NCBI GenBank assembly: GCA_937951485.1
Contig: CALEDJ010000003.1
Location: forward strand, 1 to 64,000
Length of the DNA: 64,000 nucleotides
Reading direction: 5' to 3'
DNA from: an uncultured bacterium
Lineage (GTDB): Bacteria; Hydrogenedentota; Hydrogenedentia; Hydrogenedentales; CAILVY01
Shown: positions 2,270 through 14,428 of the stretch, one piece after another
How positions within the stretch are numbered: position 1 is the first letter of the stretch
How the letters are laid out: the number at the start of each line of letters is the position of its first letter
Notes under the pieces: generated by a model
Seen by the model: only the letters and a program-made list of their open reading frames with translations
What the model was told of the DNA's origin: nothing
Databases searched by the model: none
Position numbers and translations under genes: made by a program

Positions 2270-2416
2270 CGTGCATAACCGCCCAACTTGCCACACGACC
2301 ACCTGTTGCCGTTATCGGACCTTTCCACCTTTCTCCATCGTTTGGCGTATGCCTTGGATGGCCGAAGCGCCGTTTTCTGCTAGAATGCCGCCCGGATGCC
2401 AATATGGAGACATGCG

Positions 2417-4732
2417 ATGTGCCTTCGGCGATTGCCGATGATGCTGGTGTTTGCTGCGTCTGTCGGATGGTGTTCCCTGGCAAACGCGGAATATGAGGCG
2501 GCGTTTCGTGGCCGGGTGGAGGCGGACTGGGCGCGGCAGGAGACGCGGCTGGGCCGCAACGCGGGAGACCCCGAGGCCATCCGCGATGCGTTGCGGCGGG
2601 CGGAACGGCTCCACGCTGATTTGGCGGCGATGCCCGACGCACCGGACCTGCGTGAAGCGGCGCGGCGCCTGGCCGCTCTCGGCGCGGACGGGAACTGCGA
2701 TGCCCTCAGAGCATCCGAACGCCTGGCGATGTACCATGAGATTCGCTGGTTGACGCGGGGCATGGCCCTGTCGAATCCGCTGATTGCCGGGAAACGCATC
2801 CTGTTCATGGAACGGCGACGATTCATCTGCCAGATGCTCCATGAATACCTCGGCTACTATTACGACTACGGCGACATTGAGGGCGGCGGCATCTACATCC
2901 TCGAAGAGCCGGGGAAATCGCAACGCACGCGCGACCTGTTGGGCGGCGCGCTGCCGCGGGGAAATTTTACCACGCTCGCCCTGTCCTACGATGCAAAAAC
3001 CATCTATTTCGCGTTCGCGCCCCGTGCGGAAGAAAAATATGACTTCTATTCCCCCGACCGCCGGTGCTTCCACATCTACGCCATGGACGCGGACGGCGGC
3101 AACCTGCGCCAATTGACCGACGGCGCGGACGACGACTTCGACCCCTGTCCCCTGCCGGACGGCGGCGTCGCGTTCATGTCGAGCATGCGCGGGGGGTTTA
3201 CCCGGTGCAACAATCCCTGGGAACCGTTGCCCGCCCACACCCTGCACCGCATGGACGCCGACGGCCGCAACATCCGCACACTGTCATTTCACGAGACGAG
3301 CGAGTGGCATCCCCGCGTGCTCGCCAACGGACAAATCGCGTACATCCGGTGGGACTACGTGGACCGGTCGGCGGCGCATTTTCACGGCATCTGGGTCACC
3401 AATCCCGATGGCAGCAATGCGCGCCAGATTTTCGGCAACTACACCCAGAACGTCAATGCCTGTTACCAACCCGCGCCCATCCCCGGATCGCAGCGCATCG
3501 CATTCCTGGCGGGCGCGCACCATGCCAATGTCGGCGGCTCGCTGGTGCTGCTCGATCCGGCGCGCATCGCGCTCGATCCGGACACCGGCCAGGACTGCTT
3601 CGCCTCGCTCGAGCGGGTCACGCCGGAAGTCTGCTTCGCCGAAACCGAAGAGGGGTGGCCCGACAGTTACTACCACAGCCCCTGGCCGTTGTCGGAGAAC
3701 TATTTTCTGGTCGCATTCAGTTTCGACCCCCTTCCCGGCATGAGTGCCCGTTCGAAGGAAGATACGAAGACCGGCCTCTATCTCTTCGACCGTTTCGGCA
3801 ATCTCGAATTGCTTTACCGCAACGAAGCGATATCGGCCATGTACGCCATTCCGTTGGCGCCGCGCCCTGTCCCGCCCGTCATCGCCAGTTCCCTCGACCC
3901 CAGCCTCGGCGATGAAGGCGAATTTTTGCTGGCGAATGTGCGGCAAAGCCATTTTCCATTTCCGGAGGCGCGGCCGATTCGAGAACTGCGCATCTTCCAG
4001 ATTCTTCCCAAGAGCGAAACCCACGTCGCCAACAAGCCGCGCATCGGATACGCCAACGCCGAGTCCGCGCGCATGCTGCTGGGCACGGTGCCGGTCGAAG
4101 CAGACGGATCCGCCTATTTCCGCGCGCCCGCGCGCAAACCGCTCAGTTTTCAGGCGGTGGACGACGCCGGCCGCGCGGTCCAGGGCATGCGCAGCGTCAC
4201 TTATCTCCAGCCCGGCGAACGCCGCAGTTGCGTCGGGTGTCACGAAAGCGCCGGCGTTGTGGGCGCGAACGAGCGGCTCTTGGCTGCGCAGCGACCGCCT
4301 TCGACCATCACCCCCGGCCCTGACGGCACGAAACCTTGGAGTTTCCCCAGGCTCATCCAGCCCATCCTCGACCGGCATTGCGTCCGGTGCCATGACGACG
4401 GGAAGACGCCGCCTGCGCTGACCAGTGCGCGCGCGGGCATATTCACCGCCGCCTATGAGGCCCTCCGGCCATTCACCCGATGGTACGAATGGGGTGACAA
4501 GACGATTCGGCCCATTGTTACGAAACCCGGCGAAATGCCGTCGGACGTCAGCCCCATCATTGCCGTGCTCCGGGACGCCGACCACGCACACGAACTTGCC
4601 CTCTCCGACGATGAACTCCGGAGCATCCGCCTCTGGCTCGACGGCAACGCCGCCTTCTACGGCGCCTACTCCCGGCGCGAACAACTCGCCCAGCACCGCG
4701 GCGAAGCCATCCCCCCGCCGGCGCTGGAGTAA
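2417..4732 (+). CDS. HzsA-related secreted di-haem protein with PD40-type propeller
   Basis: 771 residues. I chose ATG 2417 because GGAG lies 7 bases upstream and it gives a clean signal peptide (MCLRRLPMMLVFAASVGWCS, then LANA); an in-frame ATG at 2396 has no such site. The middle carries TolB/PD40-like blade motifs (MDADGGNLRQLTDGADDDFD, NPDGSNARQIFG). The C-terminal part has two c-type haem motifs, CVGCH near residue 605 and CVRCH near residue 655. This order matches proteins annotated as HzsA-related, which resemble the hydrazine synthase alpha subunit but occur in many non-anammox bacteria. Export and haem attachment in the periplasm are expected from the motifs. No hzsB/hzsC partners are visible, so hydrazine synthesis is not implied; an electron-transfer or surface-oxidation role is possible but unproven. 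Confidence 0.85.
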   Translation: MCLRRLPMMLVFAASVGWCSLANAEYEAAFRGRVEADWARQETRLGRNAGDPEAIRDALRRAERLHADLAAMPDAPDLREAARRLAALGADGNCDALRASERLAMYHEIRWLTRGMALSNPLIAGKRILFMERRRFICQMLHEYLGYYYDYGDIEGGGIYILEEPGKSQRTRDLLGGALPRGNFTTLALSYDAKTIYFAFAPRAEEKYDFYSPDRRCFHIYAMDADGGNLRQLTDGADDDFDPCPLPDGGVAFMSSMRGGFTRCNNPWEPLPAHTLHRMDADGRNIRTLSFHETSEWHPRVLANGQIAYIRWDYVDRSAAHFHGIWVTNPDGSNARQIFGNYTQNVNACYQPAPIPGSQRIAFLAGAHHANVGGSLVLLDPARIALDPDTGQDCFASLERVTPEVCFAETEEGWPDSYYHSPWPLSENYFLVAFSFDPLPGMSARSKEDTKTGLYLFDRFGNLELLYRNEAISAMYAIPLAPRPVPPVIASSLDPSLGDEGEFLLANVRQSHFPFPEARPIRELRIFQILPKSETHVANKPRIGYANAESARMLLGTVPVEADGSAYFRAPARKPLSFQAVDDAGRAVQGMRSVTYLQPGERRSCVGCHESAGVVGANERLLAAQRPPSTITPGPDGTKPWSFPRLIQPILDRHCVRCHDDGKTPPALTSARAGIFTAAYEALRPFTRWYEWGDKTIRPIVTKPGEMPSDVSPIIAVLRDADHAHELALSDDELRSIRLWLDGNAAFYGAYSRREQLAQHRGEAIPPPALE

Positions 4733-9587: not shown

Positions 9588-9638
9588 ATGGGTCAGGGGA
9601 CACGGAGCCGGATATCTTAAATCAGGAGTGTCACAGGG

Positions 9639-12476
9639 ATGCAGAAAGCGAACAGACAAAAAGGTCTGATGATTTGGTTGATAATTCCGTTGATTCTTAC
9701 GGCGTCGCCGGGCCACGCGCAGGTGGTCAGCCGTCCGCTGGACGCGCCAGTCCCGGGCGGCATGCCCACGCGCTGGGCCTTGGTGGTGGGGGTGGATGCG
9801 TACGATGACCCGGCGTGTGTCCCGAACCCTGTCGCTGCGCAGGCGGCGCTGTCGCTGCGCGACGGACTTGCGGCCGCGCCCGGCACAGGCGCCCAACAAC
9901 GGCTGGCGCTGGTGACAGGCGATACGGCCACGCGCGCCGGCATTCTGACGACGTTGCGCGATATGTTGGCCCAGGCCGCGCCGGAGGACGTCCTGCTACT
10001 GCATTTTTCCGGGCATGCCGTCAAAGCCGCCGATGGCGGTCTGGTGCTTATGGCGAAGGATTCGCTGCTGGCCGACCCGGCGTACACGGGATTGCCTTTT
10101 GCGCTGGTGACGGAAGGTATTGCGGCGTCGCGTGTGCAGAAGGTGTTCATCACGTTGGACACCTCGTTCGCGGCGGCGGCCGCCCCCGCTGTGGACCGCG
10201 CGGTGCAGGCGGGGAAGGACATTCTGTTGTTGGGCGCCACGGGCCCGAATGAACTCTTGCCCCAGTTCACGGAGCCGAGGTCCGGGCCGCTTGTGCATTT
10301 CCTGACCGAAGGGCTTCGCGGTCCGGCGGATTTTTCCGGCAACCTGCTGATCACGGCGCGGGAAGCGGCGGAATATGTGGTTCGCCAGTGGCCCCCCTGG
10401 CTGCAATCCCGGCATGTGATCCTCACGCCGGGCATTTTCGGCGGCTCCGGGCAATTCGCCGTCGTGGACTTGACGGCCACCGTGGACGCGCTTTCGCAAC
10501 GCATCGAACCGCCGATAATTCCGCCGGAACCCATTGCCGTTCCGCCGCCTCCTGGTCCGCCCGTGTCAATCCCGCCACCGCCCCCTCCCCCGACAACGGT
10601 TACGCCAAGCGTGCCCGCGCCTCCGTCGCCATCGCCACCACCGCCGCCTGCCGTATCGCCGTCCTTTGCGGCGGCAACGCGTATTCCCGGCGAACGCGTC
10701 GCGGCGCTGTTGATTGGCATCAATACTTACGAGACGCCGCGCCTGACGCCTCTGTCCGCGCCGATGAATGACGTGACCCTGATGCGGGAGGCGCTGGTGC
10801 GCGCGATGGGCGCGGATATCGGCCGCATCATCACGCTCACAGAACAGGCCGCCACCTATGAGGGGATTCTCAGCGCCGCGCAGCGCGCAGGCCGGATGAC
10901 CGCCCCCGAGGACGTGCTGCTTGTGTATTTCGCCGGTCATGCGGCGCGCGTGCCGGACCCCATGGGCGACCTGCAGACCGGGACCAGTTACATGCTTTGT
11001 CCCCGCGATATGCAGATGAGCGGCCGGAACATCCTGCCCATGCGCGTGCTGGCCGAGGCATTGACCAAGGCGCCCGCGCGGCGCGTGGTGCTCATACTGG
11101 AAGCCATGAATGCAGCGGCCGCAGGCCTGTTCCTGACCCCGCTGGCCGATGCCGGAAAGGAATACGTTCTGCTGGCCGCGTGCGGCGCAGACCAGTTCTC
11201 TTTCGAGATGGATTTTCCTTTGCCCGATGGGGCTTCGGTCCGCCAGAGCGCCTTCACCTACTACTTCGTCCAGGGACTCTATGGCCTTGCGGACCTCTCG
11301 CGCGACAACCGCATCACGGCGGCGGAGGCCGTTGAATACGCCCGGACGGAGATGGACCGCAAGGGACACAGCCAGCGTCCCGAACTGGTCGGGCCAGCAG
11401 GCAACATTGTGCTGGCAACCGCCACGGTGGAAGAAGGCGCATTGACTGCGGCCGCCGCGGCGGCGCAGGCGCTGGCCGCCGCTGCTGAAGCGGCTGCCGC
11501 CGCGCGCGCCCCGGCGCCATCCGCGGCGCCGAAACCGGAACCGGCGAAGACTGAGGAGAGAAAACCTGAGCCGCCAAAGGAAGCCCCGCCGCCTGCTCCG
11601 CCGCCTCCGCCGCCCGTGAAAGAGGAACCAAAAACGGAACCGGCACCCGAAGTCAAAGAGGAACCGAAAACACCATCCAAAGAGGAAGTGAAAGAGGCGG
11701 TGCCGGAAAGACCCAAAGTGCCGGCGGGTCCACCGAAGAAATGGGCGGTGATTGTGGGCATCAACCGCTATGCGTCGCCCGCGCTGCCGGAATTGCCCGG
11801 CGCGGTGAACGACAGCCGGGAAATGCGCGGCGTGCTGTTGGACGCGATGGGCTTCAAATCATCCGAAGTGACGGTCTTGACCGACGCCAAGGCGACGCGC
11901 GACGCGATACTCGGCGCGATCAGGGCCATTGCCCAAAAAGCGGGGCCGAACGATCTGGTCCTGTTTTATTTCTCCGGTCACAGCGCCATGTTTGCTGTGA
12001 GCGGCGCGCATGGCGAGGAACTCGTGCTCTGCTCGCACGATACCCGGATCGTCGAAGGTGGCGTCAGCCTGCCCTTCCGCGAGGTCATGGCGGCACTGGC
12101 CGACCTGCCGGTGAAACAGCGCGTGGCCATTCTGGAAACCTCGCGGGCCGCCGCAGGCGCGGCGGCTGTGGAACGCGCCGTCGCCCGGGGCAGGGCAAGC
12201 CTGCTCCTCGCCGCGTGCGATGCCGGGGAAAGCACCAAAGACGCGCGGCTCACTATCTCCGGCAAGGATCAACTCCAAGGCGCCTTCACCTATTTCCTCA
12301 CGCAAGGGTTGCGCGGCGAAGCCGCCGCGACCAGAAGCGCTGCCCGGCGCATCCCGCTGAACGATGCCGTGGCCTACGCGGCGAAAAAACTCGACGAACT
12401 CGGCTACGGCCAGAAACCCCGTCTCATCGGCGAGCCTGCCGACCTCGTACTCAGCGCGCCACTGAGCGCGGAATAG
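9639..12476 (+). CDS. Secreted protein with three caspase-like domains, all lacking the catalytic cysteine
   Basis: 945 residues. A signal peptide (MQKANRQKGLMIWLIIPLIL, ending GHAQ) is followed by three peptidase C14-like domains: about residues 42-280, 348-600 and 699-940. Each starts with the beta-1 pattern (RWALVVGVDAYD, VAALLIGINTYE, KWAVIVGINRYA) and keeps the catalytic histidine in FSGH/FAGH (His126, His434, His781). At the cysteine strand, where active members read D-x-C, they read DTS (Ser176), EAM (Met490) and ETS (Ser835). The linkers are rich in Pro, Ala, Lys and Glu (residues 285-345 and 610-695). Proteolysis by the usual mechanism is therefore unlikely; binding or scaffolding in the periplasm is an inference. 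Start is ATG 9639, with GGAG about 12 bases upstream. Family identity is clear from the repeated motif set. Confidence 0.85.
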   Translation: MQKANRQKGLMIWLIIPLILTASPGHAQVVSRPLDAPVPGGMPTRWALVVGVDAYDDPACVPNPVAAQAALSLRDGLAAAPGTGAQQRLALVTGDTATRAGILTTLRDMLAQAAPEDVLLLHFSGHAVKAADGGLVLMAKDSLLADPAYTGLPFALVTEGIAASRVQKVFITLDTSFAAAAAPAVDRAVQAGKDILLLGATGPNELLPQFTEPRSGPLVHFLTEGLRGPADFSGNLLITAREAAEYVVRQWPPWLQSRHVILTPGIFGGSGQFAVVDLTATVDALSQRIEPPIIPPEPIAVPPPPGPPVSIPPPPPPPTTVTPSVPAPPSPSPPPPPAVSPSFAAATRIPGERVAALLIGINTYETPRLTPLSAPMNDVTLMREALVRAMGADIGRIITLTEQAATYEGILSAAQRAGRMTAPEDVLLVYFAGHAARVPDPMGDLQTGTSYMLCPRDMQMSGRNILPMRVLAEALTKAPARRVVLILEAMNAAAAGLFLTPLADAGKEYVLLAACGADQFSFEMDFPLPDGASVRQSAFTYYFVQGLYGLADLSRDNRITAAEAVEYARTEMDRKGHSQRPELVGPAGNIVLATATVEEGALTAAAAAAQALAAAAEAAAAARAPAPSAAPKPEPAKTEERKPEPPKEAPPPAPPPPPPVKEEPKTEPAPEVKEEPKTPSKEEVKEAVPERPKVPAGPPKKWAVIVGINRYASPALPELPGAVNDSREMRGVLLDAMGFKSSEVTVLTDAKATRDAILGAIRAIAQKAGPNDLVLFYFSGHSAMFAVSGAHGEELVLCSHDTRIVEGGVSLPFREVMAALADLPVKQRVAILETSRAAAGAAAVERAVARGRASLLLAACDAGESTKDARLTISGKDQLQGAFTYFLTQGLRGEAAATRSAARRIPLNDAVAYAAKKLDELGYGQKPRLIGEPADLVLSAPLSAE

Positions 12477-12694
12477 GAGCGCGGAATGCGGAATGGGGAG
12501 TTACGAATTCCCTCGTTGCACCACAGGTTTGGTGCAACGAAGAGAAACGACATGAGGCACGCTGAAGCGTGAACAACATGCTTTTGGAGGCCTTCGGTCG
12601 GAGCGGTGGCGTGGTCTGGAGACCCGCCACAACAACAAAAACTTCCCGCATTCCGCACTCCGCATTCTCCATTCCCCATTCCGCATTCCCCATT
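12477..12694. repeat. Heptad-flanked intergenic element with strong hairpins
   Basis: The gap between two convergent genes is filled with repeat sequence. GCGGAATGCGGAATGGGGA near its left end is inverted at the right as runs of CATTCCG/CATTCCC heptads (12650-12694). Inside are TCGTTGCACCA (12513-12523) paired perfectly with TGGTGCAACGA (12530-12540), a CACGCT-GA-AGCGTG hairpin (12558-12571), and a GTGGCG...CGCCAC hairpin near 12605-12630. The same heptads recur near 24775 and 47810. The 11-bp hairpin could terminate transcription from either side. Confidence 0.75.
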
Positions 12695-14428
12695 CTATTG
12701 TATTCTTCTGGGCGCGATCAGTGGCGGCGCGTCTTCCGGGAGCATCATTTCGGGGGTGGTGTCTGATTCGATGCGAATCCAGGTCTTGTCCACGTCAAGA
12801 TTGGGATTGCGCCAGAGCAGTTCCTGGGTGATTTCCTGCGCGTAGATGGGGCTGCTCATGGCGAGCACGTCAATGTCACCGAAGCCGGCGCGGGGGTTGC
12901 GGGGCGTGTCAATGACGCGCACGCGGAAGACGGCGGCGCGGGTGCTGTGGCGCAGGAACTGGACCACAACATTGTCTCTGACAATCGGAACGGTGCGGAT
13001 GGGACGTCCGTCTTCCAGCACTTGGAGTTTCTTTCCTGCGGCCCGCTTCACCCCGACGATGAACTGCACATCCACATCGAGGGGGACGACGCCGCCGATG
13101 CCGACGTCGGTCTTGCCGTCGGCGAGTACGTCCGCGGCAAAATGCAGTTCGGGTCCGTTCAGATCGGCGGAGATATAGGTGCGGCCGAGGCGCAATCCTT
13201 CCAGGATGGCCGGGAGCGATTTGTCGCGGGCGAAGACATACGTGACAGGCGCGCCGAGCGGGGTTCCGGGTCCGGCGGCATTGCTGCCGCCAACGGCGCA
13301 GGCCATGAGGCCGCGACCCAGTTCCAGATCGTAGAAGTGGGCGGCCTGTGCATTCGCCGAGGTCGGGGCCAGGTCCGCCCGCGCGGCAGCGGCGGCGATG
13401 GAATAGACCAGCCGCCCGTCCTGTCGTTCCAGCAGGTCATCGTGCAATTGGTGCAGACGCAGTGGGGGCGGCGTGCGCCAGCCGTTGTGCCAGACCTGGA
13501 TGGCATTGACGAAACTCAAGCCCCACAACCAGGGGGCGGAAGACAGGCACGGGTGGGCGATGGCGAAAATGCCGCCCTGGGCCTGCACACGGATGCATTC
13601 CGCCTGCGCGGCGGGGATGCCGCGCGGGGGATCGGGGAGCGTGCGCGGCCCATAGATGAGCGCATAGCCCATGGCATCGTTTCCCCATTCCATGGCGGGA
13701 ATCAACACGAGTTTGTCGGAACGATAGGCAGGGTCATAAATGGCGGCCATGGTGTTGCGGTCGGTGATCGCCAGGAAGTCAAGCCCCGCGCGCTCCGCGC
13801 GCCGAACCAGTTGGGCCACGGTCTCTTCGCCGCGACCATGGCGCGAGTGCGCGTGAAGTTCGCCCCGATACCACCGCGCTTCGTTGCCCAGGACGCGGGT
13901 GTCAAAGGGGAGCGGCGCGCGCCCCGGCACTTCCGCTGCATTGTAGGGGTCCGTGCCGCTCGCCAGTTCCACCCGGTCTATGGCGAGATCGCCGTCCGCG
14001 TCAAAATCGCGCAGGCGCAACGCGCCGCTGGCCCCTTCCAGGAGACTCACCAGCAGATACGCCTCGCGGTCCCCGCGGATTTCCAGGTCGCGAATTTCCG
14101 CAAGCACCGGCACCCCCTCCTCATACACATGCACGTAAGCCCGGTATTCGCCGACCGGCAGATGCGTTTCGCTTTGACCTTCCGGCGCCTCCACCTGAAT
14201 GGGGGGGCTGCCGAGAAAATCAATCAGGTCTATGCGCGCCGCGAGGTGATGGCCAAGCACGTTGGTGATATCAGTCGTCAACACCCCCTGTTCCCCGGGA
14301 CGCCCCACCCCGGTGGTGAGCGCGTCTTCGCCGGCCTTCAGCGGGTCGGGACGCGGCGGCCCCTCCATCGGCGTCCCCGCGCATCCCGCCAAGACCACCA
14401 GAAACATCAAAGCCGCCACATACTTCAT
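12695..14428 (-). CDS. PHP-domain lipoprotein, CehA/McbA-like metallohydrolase
   Basis: 577 residues from ATG 14428, chosen because it follows AGGA at good distance and starts a textbook lipoprotein signal (MKYVAALMFLVVLAGCAG, lipobox LAGC). A longer in-frame reading from 14581 would bury this signal. The mature protein has a beta-sandwich part with a calcium-loop-like DFDADGDLAIDRVE, then a PHP domain starting RWYRGELHAHSRHG (H-x-H), followed by FLAITDRNT and AIAHPC. These are metal ligands in PHP phosphoesterases, and this arrangement is typical of CehA/McbA hydrolases. The protein should be anchored to a membrane with the enzyme in the periplasm. The substrate is unknown. It is convergent with the pseudocaspase gene and divergent from the GntR regulator. 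Confidence 0.85.
   Translation of the reverse strand: MKYVAALMFLVVLAGCAGTPMEGPPRPDPLKAGEDALTTGVGRPGEQGVLTTDITNVLGHHLAARIDLIDFLGSPPIQVEAPEGQSETHLPVGEYRAYVHVYEEGVPVLAEIRDLEIRGDREAYLLVSLLEGASGALRLRDFDADGDLAIDRVELASGTDPYNAAEVPGRAPLPFDTRVLGNEARWYRGELHAHSRHGRGEETVAQLVRRAERAGLDFLAITDRNTMAAIYDPAYRSDKLVLIPAMEWGNDAMGYALIYGPRTLPDPPRGIPAAQAECIRVQAQGGIFAIAHPCLSSAPWLWGLSFVNAIQVWHNGWRTPPPLRLHQLHDDLLERQDGRLVYSIAAAAARADLAPTSANAQAAHFYDLELGRGLMACAVGGSNAAGPGTPLGAPVTYVFARDKSLPAILEGLRLGRTYISADLNGPELHFAADVLADGKTDVGIGGVVPLDVDVQFIVGVKRAAGKKLQVLEDGRPIRTVPIVRDNVVVQFLRHSTRAAVFRVRVIDTPRNPRAGFGDIDVLAMSSPIYAQEITQELLWRNPNLDVDKTWIRIESDTTPEMMLPEDAPPLIAPRRIQ

Follow-up and report, generated by a model that had tools for sequence, protein, structure and literature searches.

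The window, that is, the whole stretch of 64,000 nucleotides that was analysed, carries an open reading frame on its forward strand (positions 9639-12476, ATG start) that encodes 945 amino acids, in which three Peptidase_C14 domains, referred to here as D1, D2 and D3, follow a putative Sec signal peptide. A Pfam search with the 945-aa protein returned Peptidase_C14 only, in three stretches (E = 1.8e-34); no second Pfam domain was found, and each domain has a C-terminal extension as in its true relatives. The gene is single-copy in the genome of the window. Its features are as follows.

9624-9628, forward strand: AGGAG, possible ribosome-binding site about 9-10 nt 5' of the ATG (read from sequence)
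9639-12476, forward strand: triple pseudo-orthocaspase gene, 945 aa (open reading frame, Pfam; orthologs G001:C237 and G002:C271)
9639-9722, forward strand: putative Sec signal peptide, residues 1-28, c-region PGHA-Q (read from sequence)
9762-10463, forward strand: pseudo-C14 domain D1, residues 42-275, with His126 and with Ser176 at the Cys position (HMM, alignment, model)
10464-10688, forward strand: linker 1, residues 276-350, Pro-rich with 30 Pro among its 75 residues (composition)
10695-11423, forward strand: pseudo-C14 domain D2, residues 353-595, with His434 and with Met490 at the Cys position (HMM, alignment)
11424-11729, forward strand: linker 2, residues 596-697, Ala-rich, then Pro/Glu/Lys-rich (composition)
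11733-12464, forward strand: pseudo-C14 domain D3, residues 699-942, with His781 and with Ser835 at the Cys position (HMM, alignment, model)
10998-11000, 11181-11183, 12030-12032 and 12216-12218, forward strand: conserved Cys of D2 and D3, residues 454, 515, 798 and 860

The phylum sample comprised 68 genomes, all of one order, in which the family of the window's genome (G000) is otherwise represented only by G001 and G002, both from another genus. Each of the two carries a full-length three-domain ortholog, of 979 aa (counted from the Met that was chosen) and 948 aa, respectively, with about 36-51% identity to the window protein per domain; D3 is the most conserved of the three domains, and linker 2 varies in length among the orthologs. 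In the window, the gene is flanked upstream by a heparinase-like gene and downstream by a reading frame without a Pfam match, both on the opposite strand, and these neighbours form no operon with it. No gene neighbourhood is conserved between the window and the orthologs across the two genera; the orthologs sit elsewhere, and the only gene common to the G001 and G002 neighbourhoods is a downstream sugar-isomerase-like gene. A conserved operon was therefore rejected. Positions 12478-12696, after the gene, hold a dispersed REP/MITE-like repeat with inverted arms (12483-12508 and 12664-12689), an internal palindrome and tandem units of 14 nt; at least 50 sites across the genome match parts of this repeat. 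The protein encoded at positions 2396-4732 of the window matches PF18582, the middle domain of hydrazine synthase alpha, with E = 6.8e-24.

The signal peptide was read by eye (MQKANRQKGLMIWLIIPLILTASPGHA-Q in the window protein). Typical n-, h- and c-regions are found in all three proteins, the orthologs having equivalent hydrophobic starts that end in FAQ or GAQ. The triple protein is probably exported by means of this putative signal peptide, in agreement with the preliminary description, which had called it secreted; the Pro-rich linkers described there are likewise borne out by the composition of linker 1 and of the Pro/Ala/Glu/Lys-rich linker 2.

In the phylum alignment, the window protein has His126, His434 and His781 at the catalytic His position and Ser176, Met490 and Ser835 where the catalytic Cys belongs. 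From D1 to D3, the Cys column reads S, M, S in the window protein, P, L, S in G001 and S, L, S in G002, and the His column reads H, H, H, then T, H, H and N, H, H. Cys is missing from all nine domains of the three triple proteins and His from two of the nine; both residues are retained in 31 of the 32 further C14 domains of the phylum that were aligned. The sole exception, the single-domain L014 (G036:C19:11284-12078), lies outside the triple clade in the tree and reads Gln for His and Gly for Cys, and so represents a second, separate pseudocaspase in the phylum. The preliminary description had reported the loss of Cys from all three domains with the retention of His in each. The first observation is exact and, being valid across two genera, is stronger than first stated, whereas the second holds for the window protein and for D2 and D3 everywhere but fails for D1 of the orthologs, which has Thr or Asn.

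The acidic residue of the D-x-C motif is retained in the window protein (Asp174, Glu488 and Glu833) and is D or E in 9/9 domains. With the roles of the acidic-pocket residues assigned after PMC6426788, D2 and D3 retain the earlier pocket Asp (ND motif) in each of the three proteins; in D1 it is lost from the window protein (AAQAAL) and kept in both orthologs. All three orthologous proteins carry ETS or [DE]x[ML]NAA motifs in D2 and D3. The triple protein belongs to the Peptidase C14 (PF00656) fold family by its Pfam and structure matches. It lacks the His-Cys dyad that defines a true orthocaspase, and it has two features of a pseudo-orthocaspase, namely p20 domains in which dyad residues are substituted and acidic specificity-pocket residues are retained. 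Given the loss of Cys, all three domains are predicted to be catalytically dead.

The low similarity of D1 to the Pfam profile (21.5 bits) might be taken as a sign of a decaying or mis-assembled gene. This is extremely improbable, since intact frames of 945-979 aa with the same layout occur in three genomes of two genera and the codons now at the Cys position, TCG, ATG and TCG, are each two or three bases away from a Cys codon. A sequencing error was rejected on the same grounds, the orthologs in two other genomes and codons at least two bases from Cys: no relative with the triple layout has an intact Cys in this column.

We also considered the remaining cysteines and the substituted serines, because a domain with a retained His could still be an enzyme if Ser835 (and Ser176), or the extra Cys454 or Cys798, acted as the nucleophile. 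D3 of all three orthologs does have Ser at the Cys position beside the retained His, and Cys454 and Cys798 are conserved in D2 and D3 of the three proteins while being absent from D1 and from the aligned true enzymes (in L028, a Cys lies one column off this position). However, the D2 site is Met or Leu, and MCA4 of T. brucei is inactive with Ser at the same position (PMC6657590). The extra Cys stands where the LLPSD strand otherwise has a Leu, which is no known catalytic position, and Cys515 (D2) and Cys860 (D3) are no replacement nucleophiles, since they are common to most true relatives. We therefore consider residual catalysis very improbable; Cys454 and Cys798 were rejected as replacement cysteines because they are missing from D1 and their site is not catalytic, although less firmly for D2 and D3. 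D2 and D3 thus contain other cysteines; in window D1 the only Cys, C60, is not conserved. In an exported protein, the Cys pairs of D2 and D3 could form disulfides.

AlphaFold models made from the window domains' own sequences (three), which are shallow and of moderate confidence, agreed with the family assignment. The D1 model (pLDDT 69, pTM 0.75; p20 core mostly 80-96, C-terminal part poor) had GSU0716 and MALT1 as its best PDB matches (E about 6e-6), both clan CD caspase-type folds, and places Ser176 (model residue 139) between strand 131-136 and helix 141-153, a strand-helix junction, which is where the caspase fold has its catalytic Cys. The D3 model (pLDDT 64, pTM 0.69) matched metacaspase 9 best (E = 3.0e-9), and a sequence search concurred with the fold (metacaspase 9, E = 2.7e-7). 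The structure prediction proposed in the preliminary description thus places D1 and D3 among caspase-type folds.

A PF00656 profile search of the whole phylum sample found C14 domains in 9 of the 68 genomes; G004 alone has 20 matches, often clustered on single contigs (C79, C154), and most genomes have none. With an HMM of window, ortholog and intact phylum domains applied to the reading frames fetched, more than one C14 domain occurred only in the three triple proteins, so that among the aligned proteins of the phylum they alone have several C14 domains, and the tandem layout is unique there. A scan of public genome contigs yielded nothing beyond one spurious match, to low-complexity linker sequence, in a Bacteroidales MAG; in 297 genomes from the phylum of that MAG, all matches were partial, most of them falling in the region of D3, and no protein had three domains. 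Among plasmids, 22 records had partial matches, with none covering 80%. No published account of such a triple layout was found in open-access text, with phyla beyond its own covered by samples. Pseudo-orthocaspases as such are already known; what is new is the variant with a conserved triple layout.

In the maximum-likelihood tree, the nine domains form one clade (99/99) that is split into D1 and (D2, D3), and D1, D2 and D3 each cluster across genera. A tree without both catalytic-motif columns gave the same result (nine-domain clade, 100/97), and separate triplications in the two genera were rejected by AU tests (p = 1e-5 and 1e-4). The sister group consists of the phylum's secreted true orthocaspases (LDACHSG). 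This topology indicates that the three domains share descent through internal duplication. The most parsimonious history, parsimony being no proof, would be one Cys loss followed by two internal duplications: a secreted single-domain true orthocaspase would have lost its Cys once, a first duplication would then have given D1 and the ancestor of D2 and D3, and a second would have separated D2 from D3, with all three events preceding the divergence of the two genera. A single loss before the duplications is favoured because no domain lineage has Cys and because it takes fewer steps than three parallel losses. The duplication order and the likely single loss would make this a clear-cut example of an enzyme fold that was multiplied after its inactivation.

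The constraint on the former active sites was assessed by the loop invariance ratio, which compares the loops around His and Cys with the rest of the domain, with 192 true-caspase triplets of comparable divergence as the reference. These had a mean ratio of 1.60 and a minimum of 0.89. The ratio of D1 was 0.79 (invariant columns, 8/33 in the loops vs 56/183 in the rest), under all 192 true triplets, and the ratios of D2 and D3 were 1.44 and 1.48, respectively; the comparison covers 33 loop columns in three sequences, and the loop-vs-rest difference is not significant within any single domain. These ratios are suggestive only, pointing to relaxed loops in D1 and to constraint in D2 and D3 that resembles that of true enzymes despite the missing Cys. 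The three retained His had been read as selection for binding instead of proteolysis. That argument is not supported, since neither ortholog has kept the His of D1 and the D1 loops are less conserved than the rest of the domain; binding itself is still the best reading, through D2 and D3.

The Pro-rich linkers, together with a D1 that has no His in the orthologs and no loop constraint, would also fit a purely structural module of the envelope or cell surface, with rigid beads on Pro-rich strings and idle former active sites. We consider this unlikely, because D2 and D3 of 3/3 orthologs have kept their His, their acidic pocket residues and the ETS or [DE]x[ML]NAA motifs, and the loop constraint of these domains is near the true-enzyme level.

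Given that the domains derive from secreted true orthocaspases, the triple protein could instead inhibit active clan CD peptidases or serve as their decoy, its dead domains competing for substrate or hetero-dimerising with active partners. Candidate partners do occur: a sensitive second profile found six further C14 domains in G001, intact where aligned, and C25 (gingipain-type) peptidases are encoded by two or three genes in each of the three genomes; one CHAT domain was found among the three genomes, in G000. However, G000 and G002 have no C14 domains other than the three of the triple gene, and at 94% and 93% completeness, respectively, this indicates that a partner C14 is not needed where the triple protein occurs. 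The C25 genes are present in 34/68 phylum genomes, mostly without a triple protein, and, being so common, are possible but not specific partners. A decoy or inhibitor role is accordingly improbable, and of the two functions suggested in the preliminary description, scaffold or inhibitor, only the scaffold forms part of the preferred reading, inhibition of a partner C14 caspase being weakened by the two of three genomes that have no other C14 domain.

Since all three domains lost the cutting Cys before the genera split, the protein probably binds rather than cuts. The reading that we favour, with some confidence, is that of an exported, non-catalytic, multivalent pseudo-orthocaspase of three modules that would bind through D2 and D3, with D1 as an accessory. 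Such a protein would act outside the cytoplasm as a multivalent binder or pseudoenzyme scaffold. The clefts of D2 and D3, with their His loop and acidic pocket residues, could hold basic peptide segments uncut; D1, having drifted, may be structural or bind elsewhere, and the Pro-rich linkers would hold the modules apart and flexible. More tentatively, as a possibility that we rate somewhat below even, the triple protein may represent a previously undescribed class of exported multivalent pseudoproteases in one bacterial family, which would combine one nucleophile loss, triplication and an envelope binding array, with constrained clefts in D2 and D3 and a relaxed D1.

Pseudo-orthocaspases are p20-only C14 homologs without the His-Cys dyad in which the acidic pocket is retained; in one survey they made up 858 of 9,994 orthocaspases, 90% of them from Alphaproteobacteria and Cyanobacteria (PMC6426788). 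In an earlier survey, Ser was the commonest substitute for Cys (PMC3501461). The triple protein resembles these bacterial proteins, such as SyOC of Synechocystis, the deletion of which alters oxidative-stress tolerance (PMC7889975), in its p20-type C14 fold, substituted dyad and retained acidic pocket (PMC6426788). It differs in the dyad itself, which is His-Ser or His-Met/Leu here and Tyr-Ser, Tyr-Asn, Phe-Ser and similar in those described (PMC6426788), and in its three tandem domains, probable signal peptide and apparently different phylum. With the phylum's secreted true orthocaspases (for example G001:C49, G004:C79 and G036:C701) it has in common the domain length and the C-terminal GHGAFTxFLLxGL motif region, whereas these have a single domain and an intact YFAGHG ... 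LDACHSG. The C25 and CHAT proteins of clan CD have a related caspase-like fold, yet are separate families, and the triple protein matches Peptidase_C14 alone in Pfam. Outside bacteria, T. brucei MCA4 is an inactive Cys-to-Ser member and functional pseudopeptidase with a role independent of catalysis; it differs in being eukaryotic, single-domain, membrane-linked and processed by an active paralog (PMC6657590). MCA4, SyOC and the pocket acids of pseudo-orthocaspases serve as precedents for the reading favoured here. Pseudoproteases are usually studied next to the active paralogs that they regulate, whereas two of the three genomes with the triple protein have no other C14 domain, so that they allow a direct test of a function that does not depend on C14 proteolysis.
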